Below are positions 8,613-40,210 of a DNA stretch of 64,000 bases, one piece after another. Under the pieces are notes generated by a model. The model saw only the letters and a list, made by a program, of their open reading frames with translations. It did no database searches and was not told the DNA's origin. Source of the stretch: Natronorubrum halophilum. GTDB lineage: Archaea; Halobacteriota; Halobacteria; Halobacteriales; Natrialbaceae. How positions within the stretch are numbered: the stretch's first letter is position 1; every line of letters begins with the position of its first letter. The stretch covers positions 310,001 through 374,000 of the forward strand of contig NZ_QQTY01000004.1 in assembly GCF_003670115.1 (NCBI RefSeq). Direction: 5' to 3'. The position numbers were made by a program, and so were the translations under genes.

Positions 8613-8808
8613 ATCGATTAAAAGTCAGGGCCTTCTGTGGCCAGTCTCGCCGTCCCATCGCTCCGAACCGGACGCGGCGTCGGGAGTCGAGACGAGGTTC
8701 GTCCGCGGGGACGGCATCGGCGCTATCGAACGGACGAATCGCGATCCATCGGGAACCAAACCGCCACGCTGGACGGAATCGGCGACCGGCGTCCGTCGAC
8801 CGTCACGG

Positions 8809-9984
8809 TTAATAGCCGAGCGAGAGCGCCCAGTTGACGGCGAGTGCGACGAAGACCAGCGCGAGCAACGCGGCGAGGACGGCGAAGGACACTCCCCAGC
8901 CGAAGAGGTCGGCGAGGAGGCCGGTGACGACGGAGCCGAGCGCCCCGATGAAGCCGTAGACCGTCCTGATGAGGCCGAAACCCGCACCCCGCTCGGATTC
9001 TGAGAGCACGTCCATGAACCGCGGCAACAGCGCCGCGCCCCAGCCGAGACCCGTTCCGACGAGAACGACCGCGGCGAGGAGCGAAATCGTCCCCGGAGCG
9101 GTGACCAACAGACCGAATCCGGTCGCCGCGAGGACCATACAGCCCGCGGTCGCGAGATCGCGGCCGTACCGGTCGGAGGCCGCTCCGACGCCGACCTGCG
9201 TGACCGCCTGGACCACGAAGTAGCCCGCGAAGACCGTTCCGGCGAGTTCGGTCGACTGGCCGCGGTGCTCGACGAGGAACGTCGGCAGGAACGAGGCAGT
9301 CGCCTGCCAGACGAACGCGCCCGCGACTGCGAGACAGATGGGAAACGCGATCTGAGGCCTCGAGAGAAGCTCGAGAATGGGCTCGAGTTCGAACCGTTCC
9401 GCCATCCGCTGGTCGGGCCGGCGCGGCTCCGTCGGTCGGACGCGCCAGGCGAAGAGGACGAAGACCGGAATCGCCATCGCGGCACCGATGGCGACGGCGG
9501 GTCGCCAGCCGTACCGGACGCCGATCCACGCCGCGACCGGCGGCGCGAGCAGGCCGGCGGCGGGACCGCCGCTGTTGTGGACGCCGATCGCGGTACCGAT
9601 CTCGTCGTAGGTCCGCGTCAGTAGCGTCGTCGCGACGCTGTAGTGGAGACCCGCCACGCCACCGAGCGCGATCGTTCCGATCACGAAGAGCGAAAACAGC
9701 GGCGCGAGCGCGAGAAACGCGCTGGCGATCGCGGTGCCCCCGATCGCGACGAGGATGATGGGGCGTTCTCCGAACCGATCGGCGAGGATGCCGCTCGGGA
9801 ACTGGGCCGCGAAGTAGGCCATCCACAGTCCGGTGAGCGCGATGCCGATCACCGAGTTCGAGACGGCGAACTCCTCGATGATCAGCGGGACGACCGGACT
9901 AATCACCAGTCGACCGGCCATCGTGGCGAAGAAGGCGAGCGTACACAGCGCGAGAACGGTTTCTCGGTATCGCCACCGCATCAA
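8809..9984 (-). CDS. MFS transporter
   Basis: 391 residues with twelve predicted membrane segments. The first is TVLALCTLAFFATMAGRLVI; the MFS signature GILADRFGERP sits in the loop between helices 2 and 3. A second GxxSDRYGRDL motif appears around residue 265 in the symmetric position of the C-half. The cargo cannot be read from sequence; the closest look is of the drug/nitrate/organic-acid exporters annotated in haloarchaea. The Met at 9981 is an alternative start. It is divergent from hemB with 213 bases between; no operon partner. Confidence 0.85.
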   Translation of the reverse strand: MMRWRYRETVLALCTLAFFATMAGRLVISPVVPLIIEEFAVSNSVIGIALTGLWMAYFAAQFPSGILADRFGERPIILVAIGGTAIASAFLALAPLFSLFVIGTIALGGVAGLHYSVATTLLTRTYDEIGTAIGVHNSGGPAAGLLAPPVAAWIGVRYGWRPAVAIGAAMAIPVFVLFAWRVRPTEPRRPDQRMAERFELEPILELLSRPQIAFPICLAVAGAFVWQATASFLPTFLVEHRGQSTELAGTVFAGYFVVQAVTQVGVGAASDRYGRDLATAGCMVLAATGFGLLVTAPGTISLLAAVVLVGTGLGWGAALLPRFMDVLSESERGAGFGLIRTVYGFIGALGSVVTGLLADLFGWGVSFAVLAALLALVFVALAVNWALSLGY

Positions 9985-36442: not shown

Positions 36443-36541
36443 TACGTATACGCGCCGGGTTACCTCGAGGATAGCGTCCGTTCGAGGTCGTCACAAACCA
36501 CCTGCTTATCGTCTCGGGAACGCTACAATAGCGTATACGTA
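36443..36541 (+). promoter_or_regulatory. Promoter of the signalling island with paired 11-bp inverted repeats
   Basis: TACGTATACGC (36443-36453) and its exact reverse complement GCGTATACGTA (36531-36541) flank about 77 bases. Each contains the palindrome CGTATACG. The second copy lies between a TATA-like TACAATAG (36524-36531) and ATG 36557, where a bound repressor would block transcription. The encoded HxlR-type protein is the obvious candidate ligand. Confidence 0.5.
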
Positions 36542-36556
36542 TCGGGACGAATCATC

Positions 36557-37447
36557 ATGACTCAGACACCGAATCCGGCACAGTCGATCGCGAGTTCGAT
36601 CCTCGGCACCAAGTGGAAACCGCGACTGATCGTCGCGCTCGCGACCGAGGGCCGGCTCGGATTCGGAGACTGCAAACGCGAACTCGAGGGCATCTCGAGC
36701 AAGGTGCTTTCGGATAACCTCGACGATCTGCGCGAACGGGACGTCGTTTCGAGAGACGTGGTTCAGGAGCAACCGCGCCGCGTCGAGTACGAACTCACCA
36801 CGGCCGGCCGGGAGCTGTACGCGATCCTCGAGACGATGGCCGAATGGGACGCCACCTACGTCACGGGCGATGGCGTTCCGACGGTGTTGCTCGCCGACGA
36901 CGACCCGCGGCTCCTCGAACTCTACTCGCTGTGGCTCGTGGCGGACTACGACGTCGTGACGGCGACGAACGGACAGGAAGCCCTCGACCTGCTCGACGAG
37001 TCGGTCGATATCGCGATTCTCAACCGGACGCTACCGGGACTGAGCGGTGACGAGGTCGCAACGGCGGCGATCACCGTCAACCAGCAACCGGCGATCGCGA
37101 TCCTCACGTCGACGCAGGTGTCGCCGACGGACGTCTCGCTGCCGGCCGATCGACTGCTGCGAAAGCCGATCACGAAAGGGGAGTTGCTCGATGCGATCGC
37201 GGACCTGAGCCGACTCGCCACCGACGCGCCGATCGCCCGCGAGGTTCGGGCGCGCCACCATCGGCTCGCGTTCGTCGAAACGCACCTCGGATCGGCCGTC
37301 AAAACGACGGCCCCGTACCGTCGCGCGACGGAGGAGCTGGAACGAGTCGAAGCCGAGCGAACGGCGGCGCTCGAGGCTCGCGAACCATGGCGTCGGCTGC
37401 TCGAGGCCGAGGCGAATTCGGAGGAGACGGACACCGAGTCGTCGTGA
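36557..37447 (+). CDS. HxlR HTH - receiver - HalX fusion regulator with Asn at the phosphoacceptor
   Basis: 296 residues in three parts. Residues about 10-100 form an HxlR-type winged HTH (ILGTKWKPRLIVAL, ELEGISSKVLSDNLDDLRERDVV, RRVEYELT). Residues about 107-215 are a receiver: acidic pocket VLLADDD, conserved Lys in LLRKPI, but the phosphoacceptor is Asn156 (ILNRTLPGLSG, codon AAC at 37022) where Asp is normal. The tail (YRRATEELERVEAERTAALEAREPW) is a HalX-like helical domain. The protein probably binds DNA and responds by dimerisation or partner binding, not by Asp phosphorylation. ATG 36557 follows a TATA-like box by about 28 bases. It precedes the receiver-kinase gene by 54 bases. Confidence 0.85.
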   Translation: MTQTPNPAQSIASSILGTKWKPRLIVALATEGRLGFGDCKRELEGISSKVLSDNLDDLRERDVVSRDVVQEQPRRVEYELTTAGRELYAILETMAEWDATYVTGDGVPTVLLADDDPRLLELYSLWLVADYDVVTATNGQEALDLLDESVDIAILNRTLPGLSGDEVATAAITVNQQPAIAILTSTQVSPTDVSLPADRLLRKPITKGELLDAIADLSRLATDAPIAREVRARHHRLAFVETHLGSAVKTTAPYRRATEELERVEAERTAALEAREPWRRLLEAEANSEETDTESS

Positions 37448-37501: not shown

Positions 37502-38647
37502 ATGGCCATGACAACGGGACAGCCTGACCCCTACACGGTGTTGCTCGTCGAAGACGACGACCTGCAGGCACGGCTGTACCAGATGATGTTGTCCCAAAAC
37601 ATCGGGAATCAAAGGAACGGAACGCACGGCGGACGGTCGAGCAAGTCGGTCCCGACCGTCGAGATCGCCGAGACGCTTGCAGACGCACAGGACGTACTCA
37701 GAGACGCGTCCACGTCGATCGACCTGGTCCTGCTCGATCTGAATCTGTCCGATTCCTCGGGCCTCGATACGCTGGATTCGGTCCTCGAGACGGTCGACAA
37801 GACGGCGGTCGTCGTCCTCACCGCGATGGACGACGCCATGATCGGACGGGAAGCGGTCGAACGGGGGGCACAGGATTACCTGTTGAAAGACCACGTAACA
37901 CCGCGGCTGCTCGTACAGACGGTGACGTACGCCATCGAACGGCGAAAACGGGCCGCCGAACTCGAGCGCCAGCGCCGAGAGCTGGCGGTACTCCACTGGC
38001 TGGTCCGCCACGAAATCAGAGAGGACGCCGTCATCGTCCTTGGATGGGGCGCAGAGCTCTCGCCGTCGGATCCCGACGAGAAACGAACCATCTCGCGGAT
38101 CGTCGACGCGGGCGAACACATCGTCGAACTCACCGAATCGGTGGGAGCGATGGTACAGACGCTCGACGAACGGCCACCGGAACTCACGGCGATCGATCTC
38201 GAGGGCGTGCTCGCGGAAGAGATCGAGCGACTCGAGACCCGGTACGACGACGTCGAGGTGTCCTTCGATCGAACCGGCGAAGCCGTCTCGGTCAAAGCCG
38301 ATCGGTTTCTCAACGTCGTCGTCCGGAACGTGCTGACGAACGCAGTCGTCTACACGGAGGGCCGGGACGGCGAGGTGACGGTATCCGTGATCGACGAAGA
38401 CGGCGATGAGCCGTCCGTCGGGTTTTCGGTATCGGACGACGGTTCCGGGGTTTCGCTCGCAGATCACCAGCGCATCACCGACCGCGAGTACACCCCTGAG
38501 GGAGCCAGAAGCGGGGTCGGACTGTATCTCGTCCAGACCTTCGTCGACCGATACGGCGGCCGGCTCGAAATCGAGGAGGAGTCGGGTCCGGAGGCCGGAA
38601 CGACGGTCCGAGTATCGCTCGAGCCGGCGACGGCAGACGCGGAGTGA
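37502..38647 (+). CDS. Receiver - histidine kinase hybrid
   Basis: 381 residues. Receiver, residues about 10-135: VLLVEDDDLQ, phosphoacceptor LVLLDLNLSDSSG (Asp79), then TAMDD and YLLKDHV (Lys). A kinase core follows: H-box WLVRHEIREDAVIVLGW (His170), N-box VVRNVLTNAVVY, G1 SDDGSGVS and SGVGLYLVQTF. There is no membrane segment, so it is cytoplasmic. An N-terminal receiver before the kinase suggests it takes phosphate from another kinase or is self-regulated. ATG 37502 is preferred (a second Met at 37508). It sits between the HxlR-receiver gene and the LOV kinase gene, all on the same strand. Confidence 0.88.
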   Translation: MAMTTGQPDPYTVLLVEDDDLQARLYQMMLSQNIGNQRNGTHGGRSSKSVPTVEIAETLADAQDVLRDASTSIDLVLLDLNLSDSSGLDTLDSVLETVDKTAVVVLTAMDDAMIGREAVERGAQDYLLKDHVTPRLLVQTVTYAIERRKRAAELERQRRELAVLHWLVRHEIREDAVIVLGWGAELSPSDPDEKRTISRIVDAGEHIVELTESVGAMVQTLDERPPELTAIDLEGVLAEEIERLETRYDDVEVSFDRTGEAVSVKADRFLNVVVRNVLTNAVVYTEGRDGEVTVSVIDEDGDEPSVGFSVSDDGSGVSLADHQRITDREYTPEGARSGVGLYLVQTFVDRYGGRLEIEEESGPEAGTTVRVSLEPATADAE

Positions 38648-38785: not shown

Positions 38786-40210
38786 ATGGTGGCAGCGAGC
38801 GGGCGAGCGATTCGCGTGCTCTGTGTCGACGAGGATAGCGAGGCGCTCGAGCGAGCGGACGAGTCGCTGGTCGTCGATACGGAACGGGATCCAGCCGAGG
38901 CACTCGAGCGGGTTCACGACCGCCGGTACGATTGTGTCGTCTGTGAGTACGAGCTGCCGGAGATGACCGGTCTCGAACTCCTCAAATCGATACGTCGAGT
39001 CGACGACGAGTTGCCGGTGATCCTGTTTACCGGTGCTGGCTCGGAAGACATCGCAAGCGAGGCGATTTCGGCTGGCGTAACGGATTACGTCAGAAAAAAA
39101 CAGGGGACGAGTCGATACGAACACCTCGCAGAACGGATCACGAACGCGGTCGCACAGTACCGAACTCGCGAGGACCTCGAGCGCAAGAGCGCGGCGATGG
39201 ACGAGGCACCCATCGGGATCGTGATCTCTGATGCAACCCAACCGGACAACCCGCTCATCTACGCGAATCAGAAATTTCAGGAGCTGACCGGCTATCCGAT
39301 CGACGAGATACGCGGTCGAAACTGTCGATTTCTACAAGGGGAGCGAACAGCACAGGAGCCAGTCGGCGAGATACGAGCGGCGATCGATTCCCGAGAACCC
39401 GTTACCGTCGGGTTGCGAAACTACCGCCGCAACGGAACGATGTTCTGGAACGAGGTGACGGTCGCGCCGATCACGACTAACGAGGAGACGTCTCCACACT
39501 TCGTCGGCTTCCAGAAGGACGTGACGCGACGGAAACTCGCCGAAGAACGCGTCAAGCGACAGAACGCGCGCCTCAGGGAGCTTACCAGCGTACTCTCACA
39601 CGACATTCGGGGGCCGCTTACGGCCGCCACCGGCTATCTCGAGTTGGCTCGAGAGCACGACGACAGCGTGCCGTTTCTCGACGAGGTAACGGAGGCACAC
39701 GAGCGGATGGCGACGCTGGTCGAAGACATGCTAGCGCTCGTTCGAGCGGGGAATCTCTCCGACGACCTCGACGACGTCTCGGTGGCGGCGGCGATCGATT
39801 CGGCCTGGGTTCCGCCGCCGGGTGTCGAGCCGGAACTCGACATTCGGATCGACGAGGACCGGCGGATTCGAGCCGACGAAATCCATCTGCTCCAGTTGTT
39901 CGAAAATCTCTTCGAGAACAGTCTCACGCACGGAACGACTCGAGACGCGGATGGTGTCTCCCGGGTCACGGTTACCGTCGAGTCGCTCGAGGACGGCTTC
40001 GCCGTCGAAGACGACGGTCCCGGCATTCCGTCGGAAGATCGCGATATCGTCTTCGAAGCGGGATACACGACCGACGAGAACGATATCGGGACCGGACTCG
40101 GATTGCGGATCGTCAAAGACATCGTCGACGCTCACGGCTGGAATATCGACGTCGTCGACGGAAGCGAGGGAGGAGCCCGCTTTGAGATCACCGACATCGC
40201 CGTCATCTGA
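38786..40210 (+). CDS. Receiver - LOV - histidine kinase, probable blue-light sensor
   Basis: 474 residues. The N-terminal receiver (VLCVDEDSE...CEYELPEMTG) has Glu54 at the phosphoacceptor site; Lys remains (YVRKKQ). Residues about 145-250 form a PAS domain with all LOV hallmarks: GRNCRFLQG with the photoactive Cys180, LRNYRRNGTMFWNEV with the flavin-binding Asn residues, and FVGFQKDVT with Gln243. Such domains bind FMN and form a Cys-flavin adduct in blue light. The kinase has LTSVLSHDIRGPLTAA (His272), N-box LFENLFENSLTHG and DDGPGIP, GTGLGLRIV. It is cytoplasmic. ATG 38786 is chosen; the upstream frame is non-conserved. Confidence 0.9.
   Translation: MVAASGRAIRVLCVDEDSEALERADESLVVDTERDPAEALERVHDRRYDCVVCEYELPEMTGLELLKSIRRVDDELPVILFTGAGSEDIASEAISAGVTDYVRKKQGTSRYEHLAERITNAVAQYRTREDLERKSAAMDEAPIGIVISDATQPDNPLIYANQKFQELTGYPIDEIRGRNCRFLQGERTAQEPVGEIRAAIDSREPVTVGLRNYRRNGTMFWNEVTVAPITTNEETSPHFVGFQKDVTRRKLAEERVKRQNARLRELTSVLSHDIRGPLTAATGYLELAREHDDSVPFLDEVTEAHERMATLVEDMLALVRAGNLSDDLDDVSVAAAIDSAWVPPPGVEPELDIRIDEDRRIRADEIHLLQLFENLFENSLTHGTTRDADGVSRVTVTVESLEDGFAVEDDGPGIPSEDRDIVFEAGYTTDENDIGTGLGLRIVKDIVDAHGWNIDVVDGSEGGARFEITDIAVI

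Follow-up and report, generated by a model that had tools for sequence, protein, structure and literature searches.

We analysed a 64,000-nucleotide stretch of the Natronorubrum halophilum genome (contig NZ_QQTY01000004.1, positions 310,001 to 374,000, hereafter the window; coordinates below count from its first base). At the locus a regulator gene with a DNA-binding domain and a receiver (REC) is followed by a REC-histidine-kinase gene and a third receiver-bearing gene:

36459..36474, + strand: candidate operator GTTACCTCGAGGATAG, with 3 mismatches to the palindrome GTTACCTCGAGGTAAC; its left half is preserved and its right half degenerate
36505..36510, + strand: TATA-like CTTATC between operator and start, noted by eye; TTTATC is at a like place in many orthologues
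36557..37447, + strand: HxlR-REC-HalX-like regulator of 296 aa, its pseudo-receiver carrying Asn156 (ORF translation, Pfam, alignment)
36599..36862, + strand: HxlR winged helix-turn-helix (HTH), residues 15-102, without N-terminal Cys (Pfam PF01638, E 2.2e-21; Cys survey)
36884..37198, + strand: receiver domain, residues 110-214 (Pfam PF00072, Response_reg, E 3.8e-11)
37022..37024, + strand: codon AAC, Asn156, at the phosphoacceptor position; alone changed among 62 subfamily-invariant positions
37211..37426, + strand: HalX-like helical tail, residues ~219-290 (alignment to members with Pfam HalX matches)
37502..38647, + strand: partner gene, REC-HisKA-like-HATPase, with ATG at 37502 or 37508; its own receiver is intact and His, N, G1 and G2 motifs are present
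38807..40210, + strand: third gene, REC-LOV(GRNCRFLQ)-HisKA-HATPase, near the pair in some relatives too (Pfam, alignment)

The HTH indeed precedes the receiver, as a sequence-only reading of the locus had stated. That reading considered the fusion and its domain order unusual, but neither is without precedent: HxlR-REC-HalX is listed as an architecture in a table of REC-associated domains (Galperin et al. 2018, PMC5847659), and the order HTH-REC is known from LtrR. The HxlR and REC domains of that architecture are directly recognised in the window protein. Its tail had no Pfam HalX match, nor did those of 14 aligned relatives; the aligned tail scored as HalX in canonical family members (E 1.5e-13 and 5.3e-15) and weakly so in subfamily B (2e-4). 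Because canonical members of the same family have clear HalX matches, the tail is, by alignment, probably a diverged HalX, which upholds the earlier label of HalX-like. The HxlR-REC protein is present in a single copy in its genome, and its closest named relatives are from Natronococcus species, at 75–76% identity. An AlphaFold2 model from a 4-row alignment (pLDDT 47) was too poor for fold searches.

Apart from residue 156, the receiver retains the acidic pair, Thr/Ser and Lys of canonical response regulators (D114/D115, T184, K203-P204), the remainder of the active site thus being as complete as first described. The aromatic switch residue three positions before the Lys is absent, being Leu200. 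All of subfamily A, the window's own group (see below), has Leu or Ile at this position where canonical members have Tyr; the receiver had therefore departed from the usual type by the time it lost its Asp. The N-terminal Cys of redox-sensing HxlR proteins is absent from the window protein and occurs in 2 of 83 family members. Sensing through the usual HxlR Cys is thereby ruled out; the sequence-only reading had not noted the missing Cys.

All near relatives have their phosphoacceptor Asp in the alignment column of residue 156, with no gap and no ambiguity of register, which confirms Asn (AAC at 37022) at this position. The Asp of canonical response regulators is therefore absent, and the window protein has the sequence hallmark of aspartate-less receivers (ALR/PsR): a recognisable REC whose acceptor Asp is replaced. 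Activity independent of phosphorylation, the other mark of this class, may apply to it. In relatives the Asp codon is GAT or GAC, and GAC to AAC is a single transition, as had been pointed out. Across the 13 subfamily A members that bear Asp, 62 positions are invariant (21 lie in the receiver), and the only one at which the window protein differs is residue 156. Its receiver is no farther from outgroups than those of sister lineages, evidence that it has not evolved faster. Receiver dN/dS between the window gene and its relatives was ~0.3–0.5, compared with 0.31 for an Asp-bearing pair (L001–L012). General decay of the receiver is ruled out by this codon comparison together with the invariant positions and evolution rate. 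By the condition that the sequence-only reading had set for itself, the loss of Asp is lineage-specific, as all five distinct nearest orthologues keep it, but loss as such recurs, as Ala156 in four species and as Glu, Ala or Ser elsewhere. Since Asn156 is seen in one genome, it may be an adaptation, a recent mutation or a sequence error.

The receiver encoded at 38807-40210 has Glu at the phosphoacceptor position and is shortened by a 7-residue deletion that follows the acidic pair; six relatives have Asp and no deletion. Two receivers of this locus have thus lost the Asp in this lineage. By eye, ~6 of ~21 receiver matches in the same genome (L137-L157) are without the acceptor Asp: the window's Asn, Glu in L144, L146 and L152, and the degenerate L155 and L156. 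Acceptor loss is therefore common in this genome.

We searched at the levels of family and order and obtained 83 distinct relatives that share this domain order. Position 156 is Asp in 74, Ala in 5, Glu in 2, Asn in 1 and Ser in 1. The second acidic position is Asp in only 41 of the 83, position 184 is Thr or Ser in 47, and position 203 is Lys in 79. With the active-site columns left out, a tree from a quick search (supported by SH-aLRT only) resolved three groups: the canonical members, with a full active site and Tyr at K-3; subfamily A (18 rows), with Leu or Ile there; and subfamily B (41 rows), where most members have lost the second acidic residue and most have Val in place of the Thr. 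The minimum number of Asp losses on this tree is four; as judged from the alignment, loss of the phosphoacceptor is a recurrent event in the family. In one clade of subfamily A, comprising four species, Ala156 and Lys203Asp are fixed. These proteins differ at four of the invariant positions, namely 156, 183 (adjoining Thr184), 201 and 203, every one within the receiver. Pairwise receiver dN/dS among them was ~0.09–0.15 (0.021/0.227, 0.045/0.441, 0.139/0.955 and 0.150/1.031), indicating that the acceptor-less receiver is kept under constraint there. Their ORF is intact, and their upstream palindrome (see below) is perfect or near-perfect.

At every A-type locus a REC-histidine-kinase gene lies downstream on the same strand, within ~0.7 kb. 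Most other family members also adjoin a related kinase gene, downstream in canonical members and usually divergent and upstream in subfamily B. Kinases and regulators fall into the same three groups, and their trees mirror each other (r=0.85, 0/2000 permutations). The permutation leaves in shared species history, so this correlation demonstrates, with the gene order, that the genes are paired and inherited together, and does not speak for contact between their products. The window partner has the phosphoacceptor His and the N, G1 and G2 boxes of a histidine kinase; it does not belong with DivL-type proteins, defined by a missing His. Its H-box is HEIRED, with Glu four residues after the His, where most relatives have Asn or Asp. 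In HisKA kinases this position is linked to phosphatase activity.

We scored 62 regulator-kinase pairs for receiver and kinase motifs. In all 11 canonical pairs the receiver was intact and the kinase retained its His (the end of the locus truncates one kinase). Subfamily B had a broken receiver in 33 of 33 pairs, and its kinase lacked the phosphoacceptor His in 30 (Gln, Thr, Lys, Arg, Ser or Glu instead), 22 of these 30 retaining every ATP-site motif scored. Pairs of subfamily A were in mixed states. Six were fully intact; seven combined an intact receiver with kinase damage (a His-to-Gln change in two, only a G1 Asp-to-Asn change in one, a frameshift in one, ATP motifs lost in three); and in the four Ala156 pairs the kinase was without the ATP motifs (N/G1/G2 boxes). 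The frameshift is in the Natronococcus amylolyticus assembly (L003 / L098) and may be an assembly error. At one Ala156 locus (L111, ~8640-9590) the kinase gene is split by a transposase-like ORF, with the HxlR-REC gene intact. Thus the residues of phosphotransfer have demonstrably been lost more than once from the aligned sequences, in one partner or in both. The HxlR receiver is broken in 38 pairs, and only the window's pair among them retains every kinase motif. By contrast, the partner's own receiver had every residue of the quintet in 61 pairs, and the 62nd showed no loss in the part that could be read, demonstrating that by its motifs it stays intact. A rule that receiver loss always goes with kinase loss is ruled out, since subfamily A has several broken kinases beside intact receivers and the window's pair has the reverse. 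Coupling of the two losses is not statistically established: the states are inherited, which leaves 2–3 independent contrasts and no significance.

A palindrome, GTTACCTCGAGGTAAC, lies 93 to 172 bases before the start of most A-type genes, with at most 3 mismatches in 13 of 18. Four A-type loci (L015, L016, L017 and L021) have the operon without it, and L050 has a weak match only. Since the motif was derived from those loci, finding it at the operon is in part a matter of construction. We scanned 36 genomes, chosen by carriage of subfamily A, with the pattern GTTWCCTYRAGGTWAC. Exact matches occurred in 10 of 18 carriers vs 0 of 18 non-carriers, and a reversed-pattern control gave zero matches in the 36 genomes. 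Every exact site was upstream of the HxlR-REC operon or of one glycosyltransferase gene, and nowhere else. This absence elsewhere and the recurrence at the glycosyltransferase gene are not by construction, and they demonstrate, for the scanned sequences, a near-exclusive placement of the palindrome. It precedes the family-2 glycosyltransferase gene in the window's genome, G107 and G016; the site in the window's genome (C5:365360-365375; L158, L167) is well kept, with 1 mismatch. The glycosyltransferase itself (E below 1e-80) was found in 6 of 16 carriers vs 0 of 12 others (Fisher p=0.024), a co-occurrence with subfamily A that is only suggestive because the genomes are related. Among canonical and B members, matches to the palindrome mostly did not exceed chance (L030 is an exception), and we therefore claim it for subfamily A only.

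Another palindromic repeat, CGTATACG, occurs upstream of the window gene at 36445 and 36532, its only two copies in the window, and had no counterpart ahead of the other A-type genes. A scan for sigma-70-type promoters and terminators, using models not suited to archaea, found nothing.

We propose that the HxlR-REC-HalX protein is the DNA-binding regulator of a conserved two-gene unit with the adjacent REC-histidine kinase. Because Asn156 replaces the Asp, its receiver should be unable to accept a phosphoryl group by the usual His-to-Asp route. An HxlR dimer would bind the palindrome (GGTTWCCTCGAGGTWACC) that precedes its own operon and the one family-2 glycosyltransferase gene. The receiver would have turned into a domain for docking or allostery with which the partner protein makes contact, and the phosphate signal would enter at the partner's own, chemically complete receiver. 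The window copy would be functional and not freshly damaged. Control of DNA binding by a non-phosphorylated receiver, which the sequence-only reading took the fusion to imply, is plausible. That reading holds in part; it overlooked the linked kinase gene, the kinase decay in relatives and the upstream palindrome. We give even chances to the window protein being a phosphorylation-independent, probably autoregulatory regulator whose signal comes in through its partner.

This proposal is supported by the family tree, with at least four Asp losses, and by the window protein itself, with one of 62 invariant positions changed, the phosphoacceptor, and a receiver evolving no faster. It is supported too by the Ala156/Asp203 clade, which is constrained and keeps the palindrome despite kinase decay; by the pairing of the genes, the intact partner receiver and the specific placement of the palindrome; and by the bacterial proteins RitR, with an Asn receiver, and DivL, which work without normal phosphotransfer (PMC4395418, PMC4211667). 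It is weakened by the window kinase, which retains all its motifs, the opposite of a settled pseudo-pair. Also weakening it, Asn156 is found in one genome, the palindrome at the operon has three mismatches, five A-type loci have none or a weak one, and the coupling of receiver and kinase loss falls short of significance.

A serious rival is a recent point mutation, or an assembly error: the lineage would work by phosphorylation, and the window copy would be a locked regulator beside an orphaned, intact kinase. Asn156 is a singleton one G-to-A transition away from the Asp kept by the five nearest orthologues, the partner kinase is complete, unlike that of every other broken pair, and the operon's own operator copy is degenerate. 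A freshly broken gene fits less well with an intact ORF, no other invariant position altered and a receiver not evolving faster, or with a second site, at the glycosyltransferase gene, that is well kept; and in related species an acceptor-less receiver, with Ala156, is fixed and remains under constraint. We regard a recent mutation as a serious possibility that falls well short of even.

Alternatively, the receiver could be a small-molecule or redox sensing domain for which the kinase-like partner is irrelevant. Such signals are usual for HxlR proteins, and ligands may control some bacterial pseudo-receivers (PMC12632262). We nevertheless consider this explanation improbable, as 81 of 83 members lack the N-terminal Cys and joint inheritance with the partner gene points to a functional link. 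Asn156 stands in the pair Asn-Arg, which is not a fast-deamidating sequence. Deamidation of Asn156 to Asp after synthesis, raised for Asn-type receivers in PMC4395418, would make the receiver phosphorylatable with a built-in delay and would suit the retention of D114/D115, T184 and K203 and the complete kinase, but is highly improbable given that sequence context and sister clades with Ala or Ser, incapable of deamidation.

A broader reading, which we hold to be less likely than not, can be put forward: a whole class of archaeal gene pairs derived from a two-component system may have left His-to-Asp transfer between its two proteins repeatedly, often in both partners. The kinase-like protein would read phosphorylation of its own receiver and signal by contact to the HxlR pseudo-receiver of a tiny regulon, in subfamily A the own operon and the glycosyltransferase gene. 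The window's pair would then be an intermediate, in which the regulator's acceptor was lost before the kinase decayed. Phosphotransfer chemistry has been lost repeatedly, often in the kinase too, while the gene pair and, in several species, the candidate DNA site were kept. The family offers natural replicates of one gene pair: both intact, only the kinase broken, only the regulator's receiver broken (the window's pair) and both broken. With a candidate target gene and a short candidate operator at hand, these make the control of pseudo-receivers directly testable.

Receivers without the acceptor Asp make up ~10–15% of archaeal receivers (PMC12632262); Halobacteria are among the archaeal classes richest in them, and Asn accounts for 16% of replacements (PMC4395418). 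According to the 2025 review PMC12632262, no archaeal pseudo-receiver is known to have been studied functionally. In the open full-text literature we found no account of the HxlR-REC/kinase pair, its decay or the palindrome.

The HxlR-REC-HalX response regulators of PMC5847659 have the same domain order and haloarchaeal distribution as the window protein, and members with Pfam HxlR, REC and HalX share its tree. What that source says of HxlR-REC-HalX includes no mention of lost acceptors, a paired kinase, kinase decay or an operator; compared with it, the pattern of losses is new and the architecture is not. LtrR-like HTH-REC regulators of haloarchaea and Methanosarcina, as that source presents them, also have the HTH before REC; the window protein differs from them by its HalX-like tail. 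RitR (Asn53; PMC4395418, PMC12632262) resembles the window protein in its Asn at the phosphoacceptor position, its DNA-binding output and its presumed independence of phosphorylation. RitR-type aspartate-less receivers, however, are bacterial and receiver-first, whereas the window protein is archaeal, with the HTH first and a co-inherited kinase-like partner. DivL of Caulobacter (PMC4211667) is a kinase-like protein without normal phosphotransfer that is thought to act by receiver contact. This likeness covers the partners in subfamily B and some of those in A, but the window kinase retains its His. Unlike in DivL, the partner kinase here carries its own intact REC, and the HxlR receiver that it would contact is itself broken.
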